A stretch of 64,000 nucleotides of DNA from Gallionellaceae bacterium (lineage in GTDB: Bacteria; Pseudomonadota; Gammaproteobacteria; Burkholderiales; Gallionellaceae), in NCBI GenBank assembly GCA_030823955.1, contig JAVBYO010000003.1:1-64000 (forward strand). Direction: 5' to 3'. The position numbers and the translations under genes are program-made. Every line of letters starts with the position of its first letter. The stretch's first letter is position 1. Below the pieces are notes generated by a model. The model saw only the letters and a program-made list of their open reading frames with translations. It was not told where the DNA came from and made no database searches. Shown piece by piece: positions 14,909 through 62,011 of this stretch.

Positions 14909-17728
14909 TTAAGACTTCACCAGCTTCTTCAAATACGGCCCCGTCACGCTGGCCTTGTTCGCCGCAACATCCTTGGGTGAGCCCTGCGCCACGATGCGGC
15001 CTCCGCCTTCGCCGCCTTCCGGCCCCAGATCGATGACCCAATCCGCCGTCTTGATCACGTCCAGATTGTGTTCGATGACCACTAGGGTATTGCCCTGGTC
15101 GCGCAGGGTGTGGATGACTCTGAGCAACATATCGATGTCGTGGAAATGCAGCCCGGTGGTCGGTTCATCGAGGATATACAGCGTGCGCCCGGTATCGCGT
15201 TTGGACAGCTCCAGCGACAGCTTCACGCGCTGTGCCTCGCCCCCGGAGAGGGTGGTGGCGCTCTGTCCCAGCGTGATGTAACCCAGCCCCACATCCAGCA
15301 GCGTCTTCAGCTTGCGCGCGATGATAGGCACCGCCTTAAAGAACTCATAGGCATGCTCCACCGTCATGTTCAACACCTCGTGGATGCTCTTGCCTTTGTA
15401 CAACACCTCCAGCGTCTCGCGGTTATAACGTTGGCCGTGGCACACGTCGCAAGGCACATACACGTCCGGCAGGAAATGCATCTCCACCTTGATCACGCCG
15501 TCGCCCTGGCAGGATTCGCAGCGTCCACCCTTCACGTTGAAGGAGAAGCGCCCCGGCCCGTAGCCGCGCTCGCGCGCAGTCGGCACACCGGAAAAAAGAT
15601 CGCGTATCGGCGTGAACAATCCGGTATAGGTCGCCGGGTTGGAGCGCGGGGTACGCCCGATAGGTGACTGATCGACATTGATGACCTTGTCGAAGAACTC
15701 CAGCCCCTCGATCTCGGCATAAGGTGCGGGCTCGGCATTGCTGCCGTACAGGTGCTTGGCCACGGCGTTATACAGCGTGTCATTGATGAGGGTGGACTTG
15801 CCCGAGCCGGACACTCCGGCCACGCAGGTGAGCAGCCCAACGGGCAGGTCGAGCGTCACATCCTTAAGGTTGTTGCCGCATGCGCCGCTGATCTTTAGCC
15901 TGCGACCTTTCTCCGGCTTGCGATATTTGTCCGGCAGCGGGATGCTGCGCCGTCCGGAGAGATAGTCGCCGGTGAGTGATTGCGGGTTGGCACATACTTC
16001 TTTGGGTGTTCCTTGCGCCACGATCACGCCGCCATGCTCGCCCGCACCCGGCCCCATATCCACCACATAGTCGGCGGTCTGGATGGCATCTTCGTCGTGC
16101 TCCACCACGATCACACTGTTACCCATGTCGCGCAGGCGCTTCAACGTGTCCAGCAAGCGGTCGTTATCGCGCTGATGCAGGCCGATGGACGGCTCGTCTA
16201 GCACATACATCACCCCGGTGAGGCCGGAGCCGATCTGCGACGCGAGGCGGATACGCTGCGCCTCACCACCGGACAGTGTCTCGGCGGAACGCTCCAGCGA
16301 CAGATAGTCCAGTCCCACGTTGTTGAGGAAGGTCAGGCGGCTGGCGATCTCCAGCACGATCTTCTCTGCGATGGCCTGTTTATTGCCGGGCAGCTTCACC
16401 TGCTGAAAGAAAGTCAGTGCCTGCTTCAGCGGCAAGGCACTGAGCTGATAGATGGTGTGGTCGGCCACGCGTACATGGCGCGCTTCCTCGCGCAAGCGGG
16501 TGCCCTGGCACTCCGGGCAGGAGCAGGAGTTCAGATACTTCGCCAGCTCTTCGCGCACCGTGGGCGAATCCGTCTCCTTGTAACGCCGCTCCAGGTTGTT
16601 CACGATGCCCTCGAAGGCATGCTCGCGCAACATTTTTTTGCCGCGCTCGTTCACATAGGCGAACGGGATCTCTTCGCGGCCACTGCCGTACAACACTACC
16701 TTCTGGATCTTCTCCGGCAAGCGTTCGTACGGACGCTCCAGATCGAATTCGTAATGTTGCGCCAGACTGTCCAGCATCTGGAAATAGAACTGGTTGCGTT
16801 TATCCCAGCCCTTGATCGCGCCACCGCTTAACGACAGCGAGGGAAAGGCCACGATACGGGCCGGATCGAAGAACGAGATCACGCCCAAACCGTCGCACTT
16901 CGGGCAGGCCCCCATCGGGCTGTTGAACGAGAACAAACGCGGTTCCAGCTCTTGCAGCGAATAATTGCACACGGGGCAGGCGAACTTGGCCGAGAACAGA
17001 TGCTCCTTGCCGCTATCCATCTCCACCGCCAGCGCGCGGCCATCGGCATGGCGCAATGCCGTCTCGAACGATTCCGCCAGACGCTGCTTGATGTCGGGTG
17101 CGACTTTCAATCTATCCACCACGATCTCGATGGTGTGTTTCGAATTCTTCGCCAGCTTGGGCAGCGCATCCATCTCGCACACCTTGCCGTTCACACGCAG
17201 GCGCACGAAACCCTGCGCGCGCAGCTCGTCGAACATATCCAATTGCTCGCCTTTGCGCTCTACCACGATAGGCGACAGGATCATCACCTTGGTGCCCTCC
17301 GGCAGCGCCAGCACATGGTCCACCATCTGGCCCACCGACTGCGCCTGCAACACGATGCCGTGCTGCGGGCAATACGGGTCACCCGCGCGCGCGAACAACA
17401 GACGCAGATAATCGTGTATCTCGGTGACAGTACCCACCGTCGAGCGCGGATTGTGCGAAGTGGCCTTCTGCTCGATGGCGATGGCGGGGGAGAGTCCCTC
17501 GATCAGATCTACGTCCGGCTTCTCCATCAATTGCAGGAACTGCCGCGCATAAGCGGAGAGCGATTCCACATAACGCCGCTGCCCTTCCGCATACAGCGTA
17601 TCGAACGCGAGCGAAGACTTGCCGGAGCCGGACAAGCCGGTGATCACAACCAACTGGTTGCGCGGGATATCGAGGTTGATGTTCTTGAGATTGTGGGTGC
17701 GCGCACCGCGTATTTTGATGTATTCCAT
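14909..17728 (-). CDS. uvrA: Excinuclease ABC subunit A
   Basis: [44 protein letters not shown]..., two ABC modules; start trimmed from ORF start 17812. Confidence 0.97.
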
Positions 17729-17986
17729 GTGGAGCCAAGGCGTAGAAAAACGACCAGACAATATACGCGAAAACGGAGGCTTTCCCAACTGACAGAATCC
17801 GGCCAAATTCAATTCTCGTTTATCCTGAGATTCGAATGACTCTCGTTATCAGCACTCATCATTCATGCACGGCTAGTTTGGTATCAACAGCTAGACAAGC
17901 CAGCTCCCCAATGATTGAGTGAACAATCTGGACACACGCCAGATGGCTTACTACACTGTCTCCATTGAATCGGAGGAGAAGACTTC

Positions 17987-18229
17987 ATGGAAGTCGTCAT
18001 CAAGAAATGGGGTAACAGCGCAACAGTGCGCATTCCGGCGGCCATCAAGGCGGCAGCGCATGTCGATCTTGAGCAGTCCGGCGATGTGTGCGAAGAGCAA
18101 GGCCGCATTGTCATCGAGCCAGTACGCCGCAAGTCAGACAAACTCGAAGATATCATCGGCGGCATCACCGGCAACAATCTGCACAAACCCATCGACACAG
18201 GCACGCCAGTCGGCAAAGAAGTCTGGTAA
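17987..18229 (+). CDS. MazE/AbrB-type antitoxin
   Basis: MEVVIKKWGNSATVRIPAAIKAAAHVDLEQ... SpoVT-AbrB fold pattern. Confidence 0.85.
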   Translation: MEVVIKKWGNSATVRIPAAIKAAAHVDLEQSGDVCEEQGRIVIEPVRRKSDKLEDIIGGITGNNLHKPIDTGTPVGKEVW

Positions 18230-18298
18230 TGAATCCGCTACGTGTCGGATGCGGGTGACATCGTCTGGCACGAACCATCGCCGCTGCTGGGCATATAA
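18229..18298 (+). pseudogene. mazF toxin relic (frameshifted N-terminal stub)
   Basis: TAATG overlap start, then after one extra A the frame reads IRYVSDAGDIVWHEPSPLLGI*, matching the MazF N-terminus pattern (M)IRYVPDxGDIVW. Confidence 0.7.
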
Positions 18299-18411
18299 CA
18301 GCCTCTCGCATAGGTAGCATCATAGGCCTGCTATAGCGTAGGCTTAACTCTTGCTCCTCTACGATCACTTCCGTATAGTCAAAAATCTCCATAGTGGAGG
18401 TGAGCGGATAT

Positions 18412-20400
18412 ATGAGTGTTATTTCAGGAAAAGATAAACAGCCAAACTCAACTGAGTTCAACGCTGAATTATTGGAAATCATCGGTGCGCTAGCTCAAAA
18501 CCTTCATAACACACGTTCAGATGAATTGTGTTGCGATATTCCAATGGAAAACTTGAGTGCTTTGCATCAAGGCGAATTTGCGGAATATTCAATTGACGAC
18601 AAAACTATTCGCTTTGCTTCACTCGAAGCACGTAACCGTTGTGTTGCCTCCTATGTGTTTGAAATAAACAAAACGGAATTCACCAATAATTCGAGAATGT
18701 GGCTGGATGCAGCGTATGATCTTTGGCGCTGTGAAATTGGCAAGACTGACACTGCATCAGGGCGGCTTCTGGCTCTTGTGCATGAAACTGACGATGTTCT
18801 CTCTATCGCAGCGAATGCGATTCAGGTCAAGTCGGTGGATGTATTTGATGCGCTGCATGTCATTAAGGCAGCACTGCCATATCTTACCAAATTAGCAATT
18901 GAGGAAGTATTCAGGCTGTGTGCTGCGCAACACGAAAGCACGAAAAACGACCTTTGTGCCGGCATGATCTACAGCGAACTTGAGAGGTATTTCGTAAGGC
19001 AGCCACAGGCTGTGCGCGCAGCACACCTCTTCCTCAGAGAAACCCCCGCTGAGGGCGCAGCCAGTCTGCATTTGGTTTTCATCATGGCCCTCGCGAAGTC
19101 GTCACCAGAGGAAGCAGTCAGGTTGTCACTTGAGGACGCGAAGTCCCAGAGTGCAATTCTCAAGAGCGCAGCTTTGTATACATTGGGTCGATTGCTTGCT
19201 TCATCTATAGTCACATCCGATTCGATTCCATCGGTGTCGACAGCAATCATTGCGCACATGGTCGACTCCGTAGAACAAGTTCGCTTGTCGGCCATACATG
19301 CAGCCGCACAAGCCGTGCCAATCATCGATGTATTTGATGCTTCGCTAATTTCATTAGGGGAGGCTGGAGATCAGCATGCTCTTAGCGCATCTGCCAATGC
19401 TCTTTTTATGAATACGGCAGAAATGAAACATAAGGCTAACTTTGGCGATTGGTTTAGTTTAATGCGCAAGGTGTTGCCAAGCTCAAAAGGTGTGCTGGAT
19501 AGCTTTGATCATATTTTGGGGCAGATGATTGCCGATCCAGAGCAACAGCAATTCGCCATCTCCTGCTTGACTGAATGGGTTGAGGAAAATGCCAAGGATG
19601 TACCAAAGGATAAGTCAGCAGCAGAGTTGTTTGATGGAACGATTGGTGAAATAGCAAACCGCCCAGAGCTACTTTCACAGGTGATTACGGACTGGTTTCT
19701 TTCAGATAGTAGACAACTCGCTGCCGCTGCTGCCGGACTGCTATCTTTCTTATGGGTGCGTAAATTAAGAGAAGTCGAGTTTAGCGTGCCGCGTCTCGAT
19801 GGTTTGGAGCAAGGCGATTTGATATTTCTAGTAAGGCGTATGCTGGGCTTTGTGACTTCTGAAGAGCATCTGTTGTCGCTGACGATGTCTTTGCTTAAAA
19901 CGCAAGATGCGCCACAGCGAACTTTTGGCATAGTCCATTCCTTGCTGATAGATGAAATTGGGAGAGACTACCCATCTTCCACCATTGAAATGTTGGGGGC
20001 TGCGAGCAGTTCAGCAACGGATGCCAACTTATCAGCATTTTATTCAAGTGCAATAAAAGTGATCAAGGACCGCATCAACGTTCTTGATGCGCTACCGCGA
20101 CTTACTGAGTTGAGGCCGCCACCTAGACTTCAGCGTCAGTTTTCAGGGGCGCATGCAAAACAGATGGAGGCCGCATCTGAGGATGCAAAGAAACATTCAA
20201 TAATTCGTCAAATCGCAATGGAGATTCCAATAAAAGCGGGCATTGGGTCATTTAGTTTTCATGATGGAAATCTTACGGAGCCAACACATTTTCATTCGCT
20301 GTCCACATCAATCTCACTGCCACGGCGATATGTCATCGACACCGTTGGGTATGAAATTCACGCCATGATGTTCCGCCTTGCCAAGAGGGAGCTGTCATGA
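18412..20400 (+). CDS. Large helical protein, HEAT-like repeats; first gene of putative two-gene defence operon
   Basis: GGAGGTGAG Shine-Dalgarno before ATG 18412; alpha-helical repeat-like sequence; overlaps the next gene by ATGA. Confidence 0.8.
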   Translation: MSVISGKDKQPNSTEFNAELLEIIGALAQNLHNTRSDELCCDIPMENLSALHQGEFAEYSIDDKTIRFASLEARNRCVASYVFEINKTEFTNNSRMWLDAAYDLWRCEIGKTDTASGRLLALVHETDDVLSIAANAIQVKSVDVFDALHVIKAALPYLTKLAIEEVFRLCAAQHESTKNDLCAGMIYSELERYFVRQPQAVRAAHLFLRETPAEGAASLHLVFIMALAKSSPEEAVRLSLEDAKSQSAILKSAALYTLGRLLASSIVTSDSIPSVSTAIIAHMVDSVEQVRLSAIHAAAQAVPIIDVFDASLISLGEAGDQHALSASANALFMNTAEMKHKANFGDWFSLMRKVLPSSKGVLDSFDHILGQMIADPEQQQFAISCLTEWVEENAKDVPKDKSAAELFDGTIGEIANRPELLSQVITDWFLSDSRQLAAAAAGLLSFLWVRKLREVEFSVPRLDGLEQGDLIFLVRRMLGFVTSEEHLLSLTMSLLKTQDAPQRTFGIVHSLLIDEIGRDYPSSTIEMLGAASSSATDANLSAFYSSAIKVIKDRINVLDALPRLTELRPPPRLQRQFSGAHAKQMEAASEDAKKHSIIRQIAMEIPIKAGIGSFSFHDGNLTEPTHFHSLSTSISLPRRYVIDTVGYEIHAMMFRLAKRELS

Positions 20401-22091
20401 AACTAATTCTTGCTCAATATCTGCGTACTCTTAAAGAACGTGACGAATTTGACCGTTTGCTTCCAGACCTTCTGCTTGCGATGGGTTATGTCCCAGTCTC
20501 AAAGCCACAAACGGGAGTTCGACAGTTTGGAGTTGACTTGGCGGCGGTTGGTATCTCGCCAGAGGATGGCATTCAGGAATTACTATTGTTGGTCATTAAG
20601 CGCGGAGATATAGGTCGCGCCGACTGGGATTCAGGGCCTCAATCTGTTCGACAAAGCTTGAATGAGGTTCTTGATGTCTATTTGAAAACTCACGTCGAAC
20701 CCGCGCATGAATCTCTTAGGAAGCGAATTGTTCTTGCCACTACGGGCGATTTGAAACAGGACACACAAATAAATTGGGATAGCTACACAAAGGAACATGC
20801 AACACTTGCCTCCTTCAACTTCTGGGGTGGCGACCAAATTGCGCTACTCCTTGAGCAACATATGCTCAACGAACACATCTTCGATGCAGAAGACCGCTCC
20901 AATCTAAGGAAGTCGCTCGCCCTATCGGGCGATCTTGATTACGACCAGAAGGATTTGTACAAATTATTCCTTCGGCAACTTGGATTGACCCATGAAGGTG
21001 CACTGTCCAATCAAACCACAAAGCCTCGTGATTTGATAAAGGCCTTGCGAGTTGTCAATTTGGCTGCGCAGATTTTTGCGCACTGGTCAGAGGACGAGGG
21101 TAATTTGAAACAGGCGCAGGTGGCTGTTGAGCGTGCCGTGCTTTGGGCGTGGCACCGAATTCACCTTGAAGAAGAAAATAACAGGCATCTTTACCACCAA
21201 GAGCTTGGTGAGTTATGGATGGGGTATAACACGGCAGGGAAAAATTATTTCGAGAAGCTGCAAGGTCACTTGTATGTGGAAGACGGAATGTCTGGATATT
21301 GCCGAGAAAACGCAGAGTTCTCGCTGGTCGTTTTCGAGCAAATTGGGCTGCTCGCGTCGATTGGGCTATGTCGAGCATTGGTGATGGCAGACGAACAGAT
21401 ACAACAAGCTGGACTTCGAGATGCGGCCATTGTGGCTGATGCATTGGCTGCATTACTAGAAAACAATCCTATTTCCGGCTCGCCAGTATTTGATGGACAT
21501 GTAATTGATATCACCCTTGGGTTGCTATTGCTGCATTCCACTGGCTATAAGCTGCAGGCACAAAATTGGCTTGCCGAACTGGTTAAGCGAATTGATTACA
21601 CATTCAAGATCAAGCGCAACTTCCCAATCTGTACGGACTCAACAGATGACCTCGTAGAAGCAACAGTTTTTGGAGATGAGGAGTTGCGCGCTCGTTTGAT
21701 GAGAACATCGTGGTTGTTGCCCACTCTAGCAGCTTGGGCGGTGATACTTGAGCGCGATGATCTGTATGCTGTAATTGCAAAGAATTCAAAAACAGATTAC
21801 CCGGAAATATGTCTTCAGCTATGGCATCCAACTCAAGAGTTGCCCAAACATCTGTATTTCCATATGGCGCAGTACCAGTGCGGCGAGTCTGAAGCACCAA
21901 TCAAACTACCTGATACTGTTGAAGAGTTCCGTGACAGGGTTCAGGCGGTTCTGAATTCATCTCGGCACAATATTATTGAATCATCTCCTGCGTGGAAGGG
22001 AGGGTTGCCTGCAATTGACTTGGTGGCTTGCAGGCATTTTAGGACACCTGTTGCACCATTCCTTTGGTATCAGTTATTGCAGAATAATTAG
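20397..22091 (+). CDS. Protein with N-terminal restriction endonuclease-like (PD-(D/E)xK superfamily-like) domain; second gene of operon
   Basis: N-term FDRLLPDLLLAMGYVPVS...GVRQFGVDLAAVG...ELLLLVIKRGDIGRADWD then IVLATTGDLKQD...FNFWGGDQIALLLEQHML; ATGA coupling. Confidence 0.75.
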   Translation: MKLILAQYLRTLKERDEFDRLLPDLLLAMGYVPVSKPQTGVRQFGVDLAAVGISPEDGIQELLLLVIKRGDIGRADWDSGPQSVRQSLNEVLDVYLKTHVEPAHESLRKRIVLATTGDLKQDTQINWDSYTKEHATLASFNFWGGDQIALLLEQHMLNEHIFDAEDRSNLRKSLALSGDLDYDQKDLYKLFLRQLGLTHEGALSNQTTKPRDLIKALRVVNLAAQIFAHWSEDEGNLKQAQVAVERAVLWAWHRIHLEEENNRHLYHQELGELWMGYNTAGKNYFEKLQGHLYVEDGMSGYCRENAEFSLVVFEQIGLLASIGLCRALVMADEQIQQAGLRDAAIVADALAALLENNPISGSPVFDGHVIDITLGLLLLHSTGYKLQAQNWLAELVKRIDYTFKIKRNFPICTDSTDDLVEATVFGDEELRARLMRTSWLLPTLAAWAVILERDDLYAVIAKNSKTDYPEICLQLWHPTQELPKHLYFHMAQYQCGESEAPIKLPDTVEEFRDRVQAVLNSSRHNIIESSPAWKGGLPAIDLVACRHFRTPVAPFLWYQLLQNN

Positions 22092-22207
22092 CGCGCAAAC
22101 TCCCTAAGCGTGGCATCTTGGCATAGCGTTTGTTGCTCAGCTGGCATCGGAACGTTCGTTCCATAAGATGCGATTGCCGTCATGTACAAGGAATCCAGAC
22201 CATGTAG

Positions 22208-22552
22208 CCCCAGCCAGCTTTCTTTGAAGAGCATGAAATCCGCCGCGTGTATGACGAGGCTACTGAAACTTGGTGGTTTTCGGTGGTGGATATTGTGCAG
22301 GTGTTGACGCAGCAAACGGATTACCAGACGGCGCGAAAATACTGGAACAAGTTGAAAGAACGGCTGGGCAAGGAAGGTAGTCAACTGGTGACAAATTGTC
22401 ACCAGTTGAAAATGACTGCCGATGATGGCAAGCAGCGGCTTACCGATGTTGCTACTGCCGAAACGCCGCTGCGTTTAGTGCAGTCCGTGCCCAGTCCCAA
22501 GGCCGAACCAATCAAACTTTGGTTGGCTAAGGTGGGTTACGAGCGGACTTAA
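22208..22552 (+). pseudogene. Truncated BRO-N domain (phage antirepressor-like) gene
   Basis: Frame reads PQPAFFEEHEIRRVYDEATETWWFSVVDIVQVLTQQTDYQTARKYWNKLKERL...SQLVTNCHQLKMTADDGK...LVQSVPSPKAEPIKLWLAKVGYERT*; no ATG start and the C-terminal part is missing. Confidence 0.7.
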
Positions 22553-22637
22553 TCAGACCTTCCTAAGGCCATTGCTGTCGGGCGGCGGGCTGACCTGTTA
22601 AGATACGCCCCTCCAGAAAATCACTTGTTACTGCTTC

Positions 22638-24017
22638 ATGTCCGCTTCAGATTCCGCAATGACTCCCTTTGAACGTCGTGCCAGTATCGGCTTGGCGAGT
22701 ATCTATGGCCTGCGTATGCTGGGCCTGTTCATCATTCTGCCGATCTTTGCCTTGTATGCGGAGACGTTGCCGGGCGGGGAGAGTCATTTCCTGATCGGGG
22801 TCGCGTTGGGCGCATACGGGCTGACGCAGGCGCTGTTGCAGATCCCGGCAGGGTGGCTGTCGGATCGTTACGGGCGCAAGCCCATCATCATTGCGGGCCT
22901 GCTGCTGTTCGCGGCGGGCAGTTTCATCGCGGCCTCGGCGGATGACATCTACTGGATCATTGCCGGGCGTGTGATCCAGGGCGCGGGGGCGATCAATGCG
23001 GCAGTGATGGCGCTGACGGCGGACCTCACACGCGAGGAGCACCGCACCAAGGCGATGGCCATGATCGGCATCACCATTGGCATTACCTTCTCCATCTCGA
23101 TGGTGCTTTCGCCGCTGTTGTATCACTACATCGGCATGTCCGGTATGTTCGAGTTGATCGGTGTGCTGGCTTTTGTTTCCATCGCGGTAGTGTTGTGGTT
23201 CATCCCCGATCCGCGCATCACGCGCTTCCATTCCGATACCGAAGCGAACACCAGCAAGCTGGCCGAGGTATTGCGCAACAAAGACTTGCTGCGCATGGAT
23301 TTCGGCGTGTTCACATTACATGCGATCTTGATGTCGGTGTTCATGCAGGTGCCCTTCATTCTGCGTGCCGGGGGGCTGGATGCGCAGCACCAGTGGCAGG
23401 TCTATCTGCCGGTGATGCTCATCGCTTTTATGCTGATGGTGCCGCCCATCATCATCGCGGAGAAGAAGGCGAAGATGAAACAGGTGTTCATGTTCGCCAT
23501 CGCGCTGGCTGCCTTGGCGCAACTGGGCATTTTGTTCCTGCAGGATAGTGTGTGGGGCGTGGCAGTCGCGTTGCTGGCGTTCTTCACCGCGTTCAACGTG
23601 CTGGAAGCGACGCAGCCTTCCATTGTCAGCAAGATCGCGCCGCTGGCGGCCAAAGGCACGGCGATGGGGGTGTTCAGCAGTGTGCAGTTCCTGGGGGCGT
23701 TCTTCGGTTCGGCCATGGGCGGGTTGTTGATGCAGTTCTACGGCGGCGATGCGGTGTTGTTGTTCGCTGTGTTCATGTTGCTGCTGTGGTTGGGGGTGGC
23801 CTCCACCATGCGCGCGCCGGAAGCGCTGATGACTAGGATGTATCATCTGCCGGAGCTGGATGAAGATGCGGCAGGCAAATTGCGGCAGTCTCTGGCACAA
23901 TTGCGGGGTGTACGCGAAGTGCTGGTGGTGGGAAATGAACAGATCGCTTGTCTCAAGGTGGAGATAGGCGGCTTCGATGAAGATGCGGTAGAAAAGCTGG
24001 TGGCGAGTAATCAATAG
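22638..24017 (+). CDS. MFS transporter, YajR-like with C-terminal ferredoxin-like (YAM-type) domain
   Basis: 12-TM MFS sequence followed by about 60 aa soluble tail GVREVLVVGNEQIACLKVEIGGFDEDAVEKLV. Confidence 0.85.
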   Translation: MSASDSAMTPFERRASIGLASIYGLRMLGLFIILPIFALYAETLPGGESHFLIGVALGAYGLTQALLQIPAGWLSDRYGRKPIIIAGLLLFAAGSFIAASADDIYWIIAGRVIQGAGAINAAVMALTADLTREEHRTKAMAMIGITIGITFSISMVLSPLLYHYIGMSGMFELIGVLAFVSIAVVLWFIPDPRITRFHSDTEANTSKLAEVLRNKDLLRMDFGVFTLHAILMSVFMQVPFILRAGGLDAQHQWQVYLPVMLIAFMLMVPPIIIAEKKAKMKQVFMFAIALAALAQLGILFLQDSVWGVAVALLAFFTAFNVLEATQPSIVSKIAPLAAKGTAMGVFSSVQFLGAFFGSAMGGLLMQFYGGDAVLLFAVFMLLLWLGVASTMRAPEALMTRMYHLPELDEDAAGKLRQSLAQLRGVREVLVVGNEQIACLKVEIGGFDEDAVEKLVASNQ

Positions 24018-56322: not shown

Positions 56323-56397
56323 GCCGAAATAGTTCTAGTGGTAAAACAGGGCACTCGTAACGCTCAGTCCTGAGTTCGATTCTCAGTTTCGGCACCA
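56323..56397 (+). tRNA. tRNA-Thr (anticodon CGT), atypical D and anticodon stems, CCA encoded
   Basis: GCCGAAA/TTTCGGC acceptor, CTGAG-TTCGATT-CTCAG T-arm, loop CTCGTAA; TATAAT at 56306-56311. Confidence 0.8.
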
Positions 56398-56433
56398 AGT
56401 CACGTTCTTTTGCAGTCTCAGATATTCTCGAAA

Positions 56434-56467
56434 ACCCGCATAACGTAAGGCGTTGGCGGGTTTTTTA
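56434..56467 (+). terminator. Stem-loop with T-run after tRNA-Thr
   Basis: AAAACCCGC...GCGGGTTTTTT. Confidence 0.65.
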
Positions 56468-56510
56468 ATGTCTATGTGGTCTTAGTTGTTCTCATTGCAT
56501 CTTGCTGGCA

Positions 56511-56562
56511 TTGACGGTATATTCGACGGTATAAAATATACCGCCACTTAATATACCGTCAA
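56511..56562. repeat. Left-end GACGGTATA repeat cluster upstream of int
   Basis: TTGACGGTATAttcGACGGTATAaaaTATACCGCCacttaaTATACCGTCAA. Confidence 0.8.
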
Positions 56563-56574
56563 GAATGGGGAGCA

Positions 56575-57810
56575 ATGATGGCACTAACCGCAATCGAGAT
56601 TAGTAAGACGAAAGCAACGAGCAAGCCGCAAAAATTACCTGACGGCGGCGGCATGTATTTGTACATTCATGTTAACGGTGGCAAGTATTGGCGCATGGAT
56701 TACCGTTATGGCGGCAAGCGTAAAACACTGGCACTTGGCGTATATCCAGAAGTGAGCCTAGCTGATGCAAGAGATCGGCGCGAACAAGCGCGCAAACTGC
56801 TGGCGAATGATGCAGACCCCAGCGAGGTAAAAAAGGAAGTAAAGAAAGCTGAACAGGCTGAAGCAACTAACAGTTTCAAGATAATTGCCAAAGAATTTCA
56901 CAAGATGAAATCTCCTATGTGGACGGTTAGGCATTCAGATTATTGGATGCTCTATATGGATCGATATGTATTCCCCGTCATTGGCGATAAGCCGATAGAT
57001 AAAATAGACCCAATGGATATTGTCGGCATCTTGCGCGGATTGGAAGCAGCCAAAATATTTGAGACACGCGACAGACTAGGGCAATCCATTGGTGCGGTTT
57101 TCAAATACGCAATGGCAACAGGGAGGGCTAAAACGAATCCAGCTGATATTCGCATCGCATTGGCAGACCGCCCCAAAACAAATCATTACCCCTGCATCTC
57201 TACTGCTGAAACACCTGACTTCCTTCGTGCTGTGTCGGGATATGAGCAACGCGGGAAAGTTTCCGCCATTGCAATATCAGCATTTCGTTTGTTGATGCTG
57301 ACAGCGACCCGCACCAGCGAAGTGAGATATTCCAAGTGGGCAGACTTCAACCTTGATGATGGTGCGTGGATCGTTCCTGCCGAACAAAAGGGACGGAAAG
57401 GAAAAATCGGCAAGCGCAAAGATCATGCTGTACCGTTATCAAAACAAGCTGTCGAAATACTGCGCGGACTGCATCCGATTACAGGGGAGTGTGAGTTTGT
57501 ATTCCCTAACCGAAACAAAACGGGCGAAGTTATTAGTGAAAATACAATATTGAAAATAATCGAGAGCGTCGGCTACAAAGGCAAGATGACAGGCCACGGA
57601 TTTAGAAGTTTAGCCCGTTCAGCATTGGGGGATATGGGGTACAGATGGGAAGTGTTAGAAGCGATGTTATCTCATGCTATACCGAACCAAACCGCCGCCG
57701 CATATATTCGCACTACATACTTTGAAGAACGTCGTGCGGTTATGCAGCAGTGGGCGGACTATCTCGACAAGTTAGAAGCTGGTGCAGAAATAATTCCAAT
57801 GCGAGCCTGA
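56575..57810 (+). CDS. Tyrosine recombinase/integrase (P4-type, DUF4102 N-terminus)
   Basis: LPDGGGMYLYIHVNGGKYWRMDYRYGGKRKTLALGVYPEVSLADARDRREQARKLLAND...; R..HGFR..Y-type catalytic region TGHGFRSLARS. Confidence 0.95.
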   Translation: MMALTAIEISKTKATSKPQKLPDGGGMYLYIHVNGGKYWRMDYRYGGKRKTLALGVYPEVSLADARDRREQARKLLANDADPSEVKKEVKKAEQAEATNSFKIIAKEFHKMKSPMWTVRHSDYWMLYMDRYVFPVIGDKPIDKIDPMDIVGILRGLEAAKIFETRDRLGQSIGAVFKYAMATGRAKTNPADIRIALADRPKTNHYPCISTAETPDFLRAVSGYEQRGKVSAIAISAFRLLMLTATRTSEVRYSKWADFNLDDGAWIVPAEQKGRKGKIGKRKDHAVPLSKQAVEILRGLHPITGECEFVFPNRNKTGEVISENTILKIIESVGYKGKMTGHGFRSLARSALGDMGYRWEVLEAMLSHAIPNQTAAAYIRTTYFEERRAVMQQWADYLDKLEAGAEIIPMRA

Positions 57811-58121
57811 CCCATTGGTTCGTAGAAGCCACAGGTTGGTTTAAGTTGTTTCATATTAATAACCTGCAACGCACGCCAATATCATTTGCTGCTACACAAA
57901 GCCTCAAACAGTGGGTGAGCAATCCCAGCAAGTTACGATCTGACTACGTTGCGGGAACGTGCCACTGTCGGCTTTCTGCTTCTCTATGTCGATGACCGAT
58001 AGGCATAGCCATTGGTCGAAGATGTTGTATTGTGTGTCAACTCCACACCCAAAGCTGGCGCCAGTGGAATGCTAAAATAATGCAGCAGCTCACTCGCGAT
58101 TTAAATTTTGATTGATGGATC

Positions 58122-59963
58122 CTAGTTACCCTGTTGAACAGTCGCCTTGTCTGGAATAACACCTGTTGCAATAAATTTTGCAACAGCATCTACAACTATT
58201 TCATTCATGTAGTATTGCGAATGAGTAAACGAGATTTCACCAAGTGCTTCCTGAATTTTTTTTTCAATGGATAGCACAATTAATTTTGTTTGCTCTCTCA
58301 GTTTTTCCTCTGTAATGCCGGGCACATGTTTTTGTTCACGCAGCATGATGGGCAAATAGGGCTCAACTTTTTTCCATATTCTTGATTCATTAATGCTGCG
58401 TTCTCTCTCTTGACCATCATTTATAAAAGCATAGCGCTTCGCGTTTGATTGCACTTTAGAATCATTTACCTCATTGGCGCTAAAAACAGCCTCTGAATTC
58501 AACAACAATTCCGTAACATCCCAGTTGGCTTCTCGAAGCCATTGATTGACGCCAGAGTTCACGCTTACACTTACGTAGGCATTTTTAAATTCATTACCTG
58601 GCAGTCCATAACCTGCAGACTGAAGAATTCTCAACATACTAAAATTCAGAAAATTTTCCAAAATTTTCCGAAAAGGAAAAAGAAAACTCCAATAAACAGA
58701 ATACGAAATTGCAGTCCAAATTACTCTAATTATTTCCTTCACAAATCTATAAGCTGGCTCCCCCTCTGTTTTAACCTTAGTGAATTTTGGAGGTGATATA
58801 TATTCCGCTATTCTGGGGTAAATTATGCTGTACATTAATGGCTCGGATGACATCGCAATAAGAGCCTCATCCAAATAGCGTGCATTAATCGTTAATGCTT
58901 TAATTCGAGGATCGCCATCACTTTCGTTAGCTCCTTCAGAATGCAATCTACCCACATTATTTTCGTCAAAATAGTAATTTAAATCGTTATAGCTAAACTT
59001 TTCAAATGCAACTCCCAACACACCAATAACTGAAAAAACAGGAATCCCAATTAATAAATAATTTGACCATTCAAGTGGATTGATGATCGGAGACTGCACC
59101 CATCCAAATGTTAAACCGAAGACGCCCCACACCAATGACCACACCACAATTATTTCCAACCAAATTATCAAGCACAGGCCTATTGCAAATACTGGAAACT
59201 CAAGTAATGTCACCGCAATTTGTAGAAATAATCGTTTAGAGGGATGCCAAAATTTTCGCAGGAAAGGTGTTCCTAAAAAAACGAACTTCCCAAGATGATT
59301 AACTTTTGTCTTAACAAGTTTTTGAATTTTATTATCAATATTTAGGCTGTATTCCCATCTCTTGTCGCCGGATACATCTTTTCTATAATACGCTGACATA
59401 TAGTCTTCATATATTTTGACATCAGAAGTAAGGGCTGCCCAGAACTCTTCTTCAGGTATCTCAAGATTAGTATCGTTCCAATTTCGCTTGTCGCATGCTC
59501 TATAAAATGCAGCTTTAGAATCTTTTTTCTCTTGCTTATACATTTCATGAATAAAATCACTTATAAATGATCGGAAATTTTTTTCAGAAAACTTTAAATA
59601 TAGCTCTAGCGATTTCAGGGCAACATTCCCGCCATGGCTATGTGCCACAATATGAATTCGTGCATTTGAATCTTGTTGCTCAATTTTTTTAATGTGCTCA
59701 AATAACTCGGCAGCTGCAGTTATTCGAGCAATATGGTCGTTATCTCCTGACCACAAAAATTCACTATTTATTTTTTCGGTTTTTCGATTAACCGCTCCAG
59801 TAATTCCGTAGCCCGTCAGCTTTTCCTCAAGTAGGGAACAGAAATTTTTACGGCCATTTGGATTGCACCGAAATTGGCTCGGCTTATCATGCTCAGGGGA
59901 GGCCCAAGTTCCATGGACAAGCACAATATAATGAGTTTCTACATGCTGGGCTTCATTTTTCAT
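58122..59963 (-). CDS. Alpha/beta-hydrolase (lipase-like) with central transmembrane segments
   Basis: HYIVLVHGTWASPEHD, ARIHIVAHSHGGNVALKSLE, LDEALIAMSS, ISFTHSQYYMNEIVVDAVAKFIATG; hydrophobic block LLEFPVFAIGLCLIIWLEIIVVWSLVWGVFGL; start trimmed from 60014. Confidence 0.75.
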   Translation of the reverse strand: MKNEAQHVETHYIVLVHGTWASPEHDKPSQFRCNPNGRKNFCSLLEEKLTGYGITGAVNRKTEKINSEFLWSGDNDHIARITAAAELFEHIKKIEQQDSNARIHIVAHSHGGNVALKSLELYLKFSEKNFRSFISDFIHEMYKQEKKDSKAAFYRACDKRNWNDTNLEIPEEEFWAALTSDVKIYEDYMSAYYRKDVSGDKRWEYSLNIDNKIQKLVKTKVNHLGKFVFLGTPFLRKFWHPSKRLFLQIAVTLLEFPVFAIGLCLIIWLEIIVVWSLVWGVFGLTFGWVQSPIINPLEWSNYLLIGIPVFSVIGVLGVAFEKFSYNDLNYYFDENNVGRLHSEGANESDGDPRIKALTINARYLDEALIAMSSEPLMYSIIYPRIAEYISPPKFTKVKTEGEPAYRFVKEIIRVIWTAISYSVYWSFLFPFRKILENFLNFSMLRILQSAGYGLPGNEFKNAYVSVSVNSGVNQWLREANWDVTELLLNSEAVFSANEVNDSKVQSNAKRYAFINDGQERERSINESRIWKKVEPYLPIMLREQKHVPGITEEKLREQTKLIVLSIEKKIQEALGEISFTHSQYYMNEIVVDAVAKFIATGVIPDKATVQQGN

Positions 59964-60272
59964 AATTGCTTTTCGTACTATTAGAACTAGGGAACCAATA
60001 ATGAATTGGAGCATACATTGAGTGCCTGCTCAATCTCTGCAGATACAATGTAAAATTTAGACAGAACATCAACGTCTGATTTTAGACAAACGAGTTAACC
60101 TTCAATACAACATGATCGACCGACGACTAAGCCCACTTAGCAGTCTCTGCTGAGTGGCTGAAATGCTGCTACCTAAGCAACCCAAATGGGATGTAACGCA
60201 GTTCCGAGACTCTGCCCCTTTTTGAGAACTAAAATCTTTAGCGCTCTCAATTCTATGTAGTATTCTACGGGA

Positions 60273-60983
60273 ATGATTGATCGCTACCTTTCTATCTGGG
60301 AAATCGCCCACCGCTGGCGTGACGTAAATCCAGACAAATCCGATTCCGCAGGCCTCCCTCTAAATATTCAAGATACGATTCGATATATTTGCCGTGGCGT
60401 ACTTGGCGGGGGAATTTCCCTTTTTCAGTTGGCCATCGAACAAGCTGAGCCTCTCAAAAATGGCTCTACTTTTAGATCTGAAGTAAGGCTATATATCGTG
60501 GGCGAATTCCCTAATGAGTTGGAAGGCGCCCTCACCCGAAAATACAATAAAGAAGCTCTTAATTCCTATTACATAGAAGCTGAAAATCTCTTCGATTATT
60601 GCTTATATAACCAAGTTGAAAAATCTACGACAGGCAATTGTTATGTAGATTTTCCGGCGTGCTGGTCTCACCTAAATGGATATGCATCTTCGAGTGACTC
60701 TGAGCAAGAAGATTGCGAGCCTCCAAAAATTAGCACTCAGCCGCTACGTCCCTCACAAGTGGACAAACTTATTTGCCAAGCAATCGCCAAAACCCTTTGG
60801 GATGAGTATCCACAAATGACCATCGCCGCCATGACTGAGCACAAAGCGATTCTGGAGTACGGAGGCGGGAAGCTCTACTCGGGGAAAAATACTCTCCGCG
60901 ATTGGCTCAGTGAAGTGGCTCCACCCGATGTCAAAAAACCCGGCAGACCCAAAAGCATAAAACCCAATAAAGACGTGGCCTAA
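60273..60983 (+). CDS. Hypothetical protein of the integrative element
   Basis: 236 aa; C-term YPQMTIAAMTEHKAILEYGGGKLYSGKNTLRDWLSEVAPPDVKKPGRPKS. Confidence 0.7.
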   Translation: MIDRYLSIWEIAHRWRDVNPDKSDSAGLPLNIQDTIRYICRGVLGGGISLFQLAIEQAEPLKNGSTFRSEVRLYIVGEFPNELEGALTRKYNKEALNSYYIEAENLFDYCLYNQVEKSTTGNCYVDFPACWSHLNGYASSSDSEQEDCEPPKISTQPLRPSQVDKLICQAIAKTLWDEYPQMTIAAMTEHKAILEYGGGKLYSGKNTLRDWLSEVAPPDVKKPGRPKSIKPNKDVA

Positions 60984-61061
60984 AAATACCCGCCATCCCC
61001 TAGAAATATCATTTTTTCTGTCGGCGGGAATTTTCTCACTGAAATCACTGACACAGTATTC

Positions 61062-61087
61062 GTGCTCCTTCAACAACTCAGGAGCAC
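61062..61087 (+). promoter_or_regulatory. Perfect stem-loop overlapping rep Shine-Dalgarno (candidate origin or translational control)
   Basis: GTGCTCCT-tcaacaactc-AGGAGCAC. Confidence 0.65.
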
Positions 61088-61090
61088 AGC

Positions 61091-62011
61091 ATGGATCAGA
61101 AACCCGAAATTATTACTGGAGCCGCCGGAGCCGTGAAGCCGCCCGCCCGCACTCACGCGCAGCGGGAGGTGGACGGACGGATGCACGGCGAGGTGGCAAT
61201 TACTATCCTTTCGGCACCTCAGTCTGGTGAGGCGTCCTCGGGCGGCGAAGCCGCCGCTCTTAGACTTGAAAAGAGGACATATTCCAACACAGCCAACACC
61301 GCTAAAAACCGCATCGTTTTACGAAACTACGGCAGAGGTCTTGCGGAAGTCGGCTGGTCTTTTGTCGGTCTGAGTCCAACTCACAAAGCGGCTCGCGGTT
61401 CATCCTCTCAGCGCACCCAGAATGAGGATCGTGCAGCTCGTCGCGCAAAGTCTCGATTGCGACAACTCGTCTTGAGCGCAAACCTCAATCACCTGCTCAC
61501 CCTCACTTATCGAGAGAACATCACCGACTTCAATCGCGCATCAGATGATTTAAATCGCTTCGTGCGCAAGATGAAATTTAATTTACCTTGCTGGCTTTAT
61601 GTCGCTGTCGCTGAACAGCAAGAACGAGGTGCATGGCATTGGCATCTAGCGGTTCAAGGCCGTCAAGATGTGGAATTGATTCGCACACTCTGGCGCGAAA
61701 TTGTTGGCGAAGGAAATATCGATGTCAGCGCCCCCAAAGGCACTCGCAAGGATCAGCGGCTCTATCTGGTTCAGTATCTCGGAAAGTATCTGGTCAAAGC
61801 CTTCGCAACAGGCGATAGGAAGCTCAACAAGCACCGCTTCCGCTCGTCGCGCAACATCAGGGTGCCTATGGAGTGTTTCACCCTCTCGCCGCGCTCTGAA
61901 CGCAAAGTAGAGGATGTTGCACTCGACAAGCTGAAGGAGGCATCAGGTGGTGCGGTCGGTTTCGTGTGGGATGGGGAAGGCTTGCTCGCCGGATGGGCGT
62001 GCTCTTGGTAA
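61091..62011 (+). CDS. HUH-type rolling-circle replication initiator (Rep)
   Basis: Motif I HLLTLTYREN, motif II RGAWHWHLAVQ (HUH), motif III YLVQYLGKYLVKAF. Confidence 0.8.
   Translation: MDQKPEIITGAAGAVKPPARTHAQREVDGRMHGEVAITILSAPQSGEASSGGEAAALRLEKRTYSNTANTAKNRIVLRNYGRGLAEVGWSFVGLSPTHKAARGSSSQRTQNEDRAARRAKSRLRQLVLSANLNHLLTLTYRENITDFNRASDDLNRFVRKMKFNLPCWLYVAVAEQQERGAWHWHLAVQGRQDVELIRTLWREIVGEGNIDVSAPKGTRKDQRLYLVQYLGKYLVKAFATGDRKLNKHRFRSSRNIRVPMECFTLSPRSERKVEDVALDKLKEASGGAVGFVWDGEGLLAGWACSW

Follow-up and report, generated by a model that had tools for sequence, protein, structure and literature searches.

A predicted Olokun anti-phage defense operon in a variable uvrA-MFS interval of a Gallionellaceae genome

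RESULTS

A coupled gene pair between uvrA and an MFS gene

The window is a 64,000-nucleotide stretch of DNA from a Gallionellaceae bacterium (contig JAVBYO010000003.1, positions 1 to 64,000). On its plus strand, two consecutive ORFs (18412-20400, then 20397-22091), both intact, are designated oloA and oloB here after the defense system that they match. The locus contains the following features.

14909-17812, minus strand: uvrA, flanking the oloA-oloB insertion
17790-22590 (approximate edges), no strand: insertion relative to the empty uvrA-MFS site of relatives L040, L042, L043 and L045
17987-18229, plus strand: mazE-like antitoxin gene (Pfam MazE_antitoxin, E value 3.4e-5, just under the gathering cut-off)
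18412-20400, plus strand: oloA, 662 aa, opening the putative Olokun operon; predicted HEAT/ARM-type alpha-solenoid
20397-20400, plus strand: ATGA overlap of the oloA stop and oloB start, indicating translational coupling; a 4-nt overlap occurs in most homologous loci
20397-22091, plus strand: oloB, 564 aa; predicted PD-(D/E)xK-like domain at residues ~15-158, mostly helical (TPR-like) at ~184-564
22247-22552, plus strand: truncated Bro-N/antirepressor-like gene (Pfam Bro-N, E value 3.2e-7; PADLOC candidate PDC-S13, profile positions 19-114 of 286)
22638-24017, plus strand: MFS gene, the other flank
24098, plus strand: ssb, after the MFS gene

Two start codons are available for oloA, ATG at 18412 and an in-frame GTG at 18394, and a Shine-Dalgarno-like sequence, GGAGGTGAG, lies just 5' of the former. 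The GC content between 18 and 22 kb is 0.47 to 0.49, in contrast to mostly 0.53 to 0.61 in the flanks. The ORF and GC data agree with a preliminary description of this DNA, which had pointed to an ATGA-coupled, GC-poor gene pair flanked by housekeeping genes.

The gene pair matches the Olokun system

Both proteins match PADLOC profiles of Olokun. OloA corresponds to PDLC03925 (E value, 4.1e-89; protein residues 104-666 against profile positions 24-595 of 596) and OloB to PDLC03926 over its full length (E value, 2.7e-166; profile positions 1-555 of 556). The two homologues are adjacent on one strand with oloA before oloB, the arrangement that defines membership of this system. Hence, the pair very probably represents an Olokun anti-phage defense operon. 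The proposal of a defense operon was thereby borne out. The preliminary description had, however, also called the operon undescribed, naming a match to a catalogued defense system as grounds against this view; since both genes match Olokun in PADLOC-DB, that part was abandoned. The pair had looked undescribed because searches of OloA and OloB against Pfam, NCBIfam, PHROGs and PDB sequences gave no usable family match. Profile searches with the OloA and OloB family alignments likewise returned nothing usable. An NCBIfam match of OloB to HflD (E value, 8e-4; 19 bits, where the cut-off is 225) was dismissed as a chance match between helical proteins.

OloA is predicted to form a HEAT-type solenoid

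The AlphaFold2 (AF2) model of OloA is an all-helical solenoid, with pLDDT values mostly between 80 and 95 over residues 20-560, and shows the antiparallel helix pairs that characterize HEAT repeats. When the model was queried with Foldseek, the PP2A scaffold PR65 and karyopherins ranked on top (E value, 9e-5) among 21 matches with an E value of at most 0.001, PR65 being the closest solved structure. This supports, with modest confidence, a HEAT-type solenoid, in line with the large HEAT-like helical protein suggested earlier for the first gene. OloA is less conserved than its partner, the same pairs giving 50/40/31% for OloA versus 69/59/49% for OloB.

The OloB N terminus is modeled as a PD-(D/E)xK-like domain

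The first 160 residues of the OloB AF2 model follow the order helix-strand-strand-strand-helix-strand-helix-strand-helix. These elements comprise helix 15-28, strands 31-33, 48-53 and 60-68, helix 85-98, strand 108-115, helix 121-133, strand 139-143 and helix 145-158, and the remainder of the protein is mostly helical. The alpha-beta-beta-beta-alpha-beta order of PD-(D/E)xK domains fits this arrangement, in which D47 opens the second strand and K68 closes the third. The model was built on four sequences and has a pLDDT of 66.6 (60 to 90 within the N-terminal domain).

Restriction endonucleases came first in two Foldseek libraries, with weak E values of 0.007 to 0.011. The best PDB match was MspJI (E value, 0.007; probability, 1.00), a weak match with a full-length TM-score of about 0.2, and the best viral match (BFVD) was a phage restriction endonuclease; a SPARDA filament chain ranked lower among the PDB matches. 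At the sequence level, the OloB searches returned no match to any nuclease. Given the weak structural matches and the four-sequence model, a PD-(D/E)xK-like domain at residues ~15-158, as the preliminary description had proposed for the second protein, is supported rather than proven. An NTPase is absent from the pair.

Conserved residues suggest a candidate active site

An alignment of 24 OloB N termini, spanning 165 columns and including sequences as little as about 36% identical to that of the window, contains 13 invariant columns, including E14, E17, D19, G45, D47, K68, G70, R74 and S87. The N-terminal motifs quoted in the preliminary description were found at the residue numbers given there, and D47 and K68, which it had singled out before any alignment, are both invariant: D47 is the first-half acid (GxD) and K68 the motif lysine in 24 of 24 sequences. 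Together with the ATGA-coupled homologous pairs in most of about 20 loci, this invariance indicates that the oloA-oloB pattern exceeds chance.

The acid of the (D/E/Q)xK half-motif is found in none of the 24 sequences. Residue 66, which corresponds to this position, is S in 12, V in six, T in three, I in two and L in one, as anticipated from the V seen in the window copy, and the domain may consequently be non-catalytic. Residue 90, located on helix 85-98, is E in 22 sequences and Q in the other two, and residue 82 is Q in 23 of the 24. Judging from these alignment columns, E/Q90 on the next helix could replace the missing motif carboxylate in a PD-xxK-E layout, a tentative assignment.

Olokun relatives are rare and associated with mobile DNA

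OloB was detected in four of 369 genomes in a class-level sample, nine of 399 in a phylum-level sample and five of 378 in a sample of another class; among these last five, one match is marginal (E value, 4e-4) and involves an unrelated-looking protein. It is thus rare, occurring in about 1 to 2% of the sampled genomes. All nine OloB-positive genomes of the 399-genome sample also encode OloA, almost always as the adjacent upstream gene. Strong OloA matches adjoin OloB, the exception being genome G725, where an additional OloA fragment lies at the end of a contig. The matches away from OloB are marginal (E values, 1e-5 to 1e-3) and resemble nonspecific cross-matches among HEAT proteins. In addition, 34 plasmid records carry OloB, and the phage collection searched contained no OloB match.

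Several loci deviate from the common layout. Two ISAs1 transposase ORFs separate oloA from oloB in locus L017, and oloB is split by IS3 in L031. A short OloA of about 300 aa, consisting of the C-terminal half only, accompanies full-length OloB in L016 (5096-5998) and L030 (7089-8030); this form, absent from the window, is a possible Olokun subtype. One genome (G584, loci L015/L075) contains an Olokun remnant in which an internal deletion joins the first ~240 aa of OloA to the last ~50 aa of OloB.

At related plasmid loci, the neighbors of Olokun include genes for CD-NTase with ThiF; TIR/SIR2/TIR; NACHT proteins; RES/Xre and AbiEii; and a helicase with a methyltransferase. The neighborhood survey agrees with the conserved pairing and the association with mobile DNA and defense islands that had been expected: OloB is normally paired with OloA, other defense genes are often nearby, and the window copy is inserted at an otherwise empty site.

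The uvrA-MFS interval is a variable insertion locus

In four relatives of the same family (L040, L042, L043 and L045), matches on the uvrA side, ending at window positions 17773-17789, and on the MFS side, starting at 22574-22592, lie about 45 to 90 bp apart. The uvrA-MFS interval of the window carries an insertion of about 4.8 kb that includes oloA-oloB. The same interval contains a VapBC-like pair (named from sequence) in L041 and, in L083 (330-1160), a Bro-N/PDC-S13 gene that is intact and encodes 276 aa. As the interval is empty in some relatives and carries other cargo in others, it represents a variable insertion locus, and the present locus marks it as such in this lineage.

The insertion holds further cargo. 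The ORF at 22247-22552 is a truncated relative of the L083 Bro-N gene and a remnant of other cargo at this site. On the opposite side, the mazE-like gene is followed from ~18235 to ~18290 by a truncated mazF-like N terminus (YVSDAGDIVW), read by eye from the translation; the mazF toxin has apparently been lost from the window. This mazE-like/mazF remnant is cargo of the same insertion and lies outside Olokun. No direct or terminal repeats of at least 8 bp were found at the insertion edges, and no integrase was found inside.

Elsewhere in the window, positions 56323-62011 contain a tRNA-Thr gene followed by a tyrosine integrase gene (56575) and a G2P-type replication protein gene (61091). A low-GC (0.38) alpha/beta-hydrolase-like ORF lies within this region on the minus strand (58122-60014). 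The region looks like a small element integrated at a tRNA gene.

DISCUSSION

We propose a two-component mechanism for the window operon. OloA would act as a HEAT-type solenoid scaffold and is probably the infection-recognizing part, sensing a phage-derived or phage-induced structure. The helical-repeat region of OloB would dock on OloA, which would license OloB once triggered. The nuclease-like domain of OloB would then cut DNA, either that of the phage or that of both phage and host, using an active site composed of E17, D47 and K68, with E/Q90 providing the missing motif carboxylate. Sensing and scaffolding are assigned to OloA because it is less conserved than OloB, as expected for a sensing component, and because its solenoid is of a protein-binding type. 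We infer sensing by OloA and nucleolysis by OloB, and a nuclease mechanism appears moderately probable. More speculative is the specific form in which OloB is an active PD-xxK-E nuclease (E17, D47, K68, E/Q90) and the HEAT-type solenoid acts as the sensor that switches it, with no NTPase involved. If true, this would be the first mechanism for Olokun, which recent literature still lists as mechanistically uncharacterized.

Alternatively, the PD-(D/E)xK-like domain of OloB may be catalytically dead and serve as a DNA- or protein-binding module of the RecC type, so that Olokun would bind or block rather than cut. Dead nuclease domains usually lose catalytic-type residues, whereas E14, E17, D47 and K68 are invariant in OloB and residue 90 is E or Q throughout the alignment, which argues against this explanation. 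In its favor, the (D/E/Q)xK acid is missing from all 24 homologues, and inactivated PD-(D/E)xK domains are described in the literature (PMC1185551). On balance, we consider a dead domain unlikely. The family alignment narrows the question for Olokun to E17, D47, K68 and E90, which belong either to a nuclease with a relocated carboxylate or to a dead nuclease fold.

Decay of the window copy into a non-functional Olokun is very improbable. The adjoining cargo (mazF and the Bro-N gene) is truncated and a degraded remnant exists in genome G584, but both window ORFs are intact and collinear with their profiles over the whole length, none of the invariant residues has been lost, and OloB shows a dN of 0.24 with saturated dS relative to its closest relative. 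Finally, an undescribed two-gene defense system unrelated to catalogued ones, as the lack of matches in Pfam, NCBIfam, PHROGs and PDB sequences might suggest, can practically be dismissed, as both genes match PADLOC OloA and OloB in order and at near full length (4e-89 and 3e-166).

The proposed active OloB nuclease can be compared with known enzymes. MspJI, a modification-dependent restriction endonuclease, is the top Foldseek match of the OloB model, with low TM-scores. It keeps the QxK motif, in place of which OloB has (V/S/T)xK. With the PD-xxK-E enzymes Cfr10I and NgoMIV, OloB shares an invariant D and K, an E or Q on the following helix, and a small or hydrophobic residue, most often S, replacing the motif acid. 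However, OloB has no sequence similarity to these enzymes, and any equivalence in geometry and activity is putative.

Olokun itself is credited to Millman et al. 2022 in later literature, which cites that study as the source of the anti-phage activity reported for the reference system. It has been reported from E. coli hotspots, Pseudomonas islands and Enterobacter. The window copy shares with the Olokun reference both proteins, their gene order, near full-length profile matches and a mobile/defense-island context. Enterobacterial plasmid copies are distant from it (about 27% identity for OloB), yet their architecture is no different. The operon described here is therefore new only as a further copy of Olokun.
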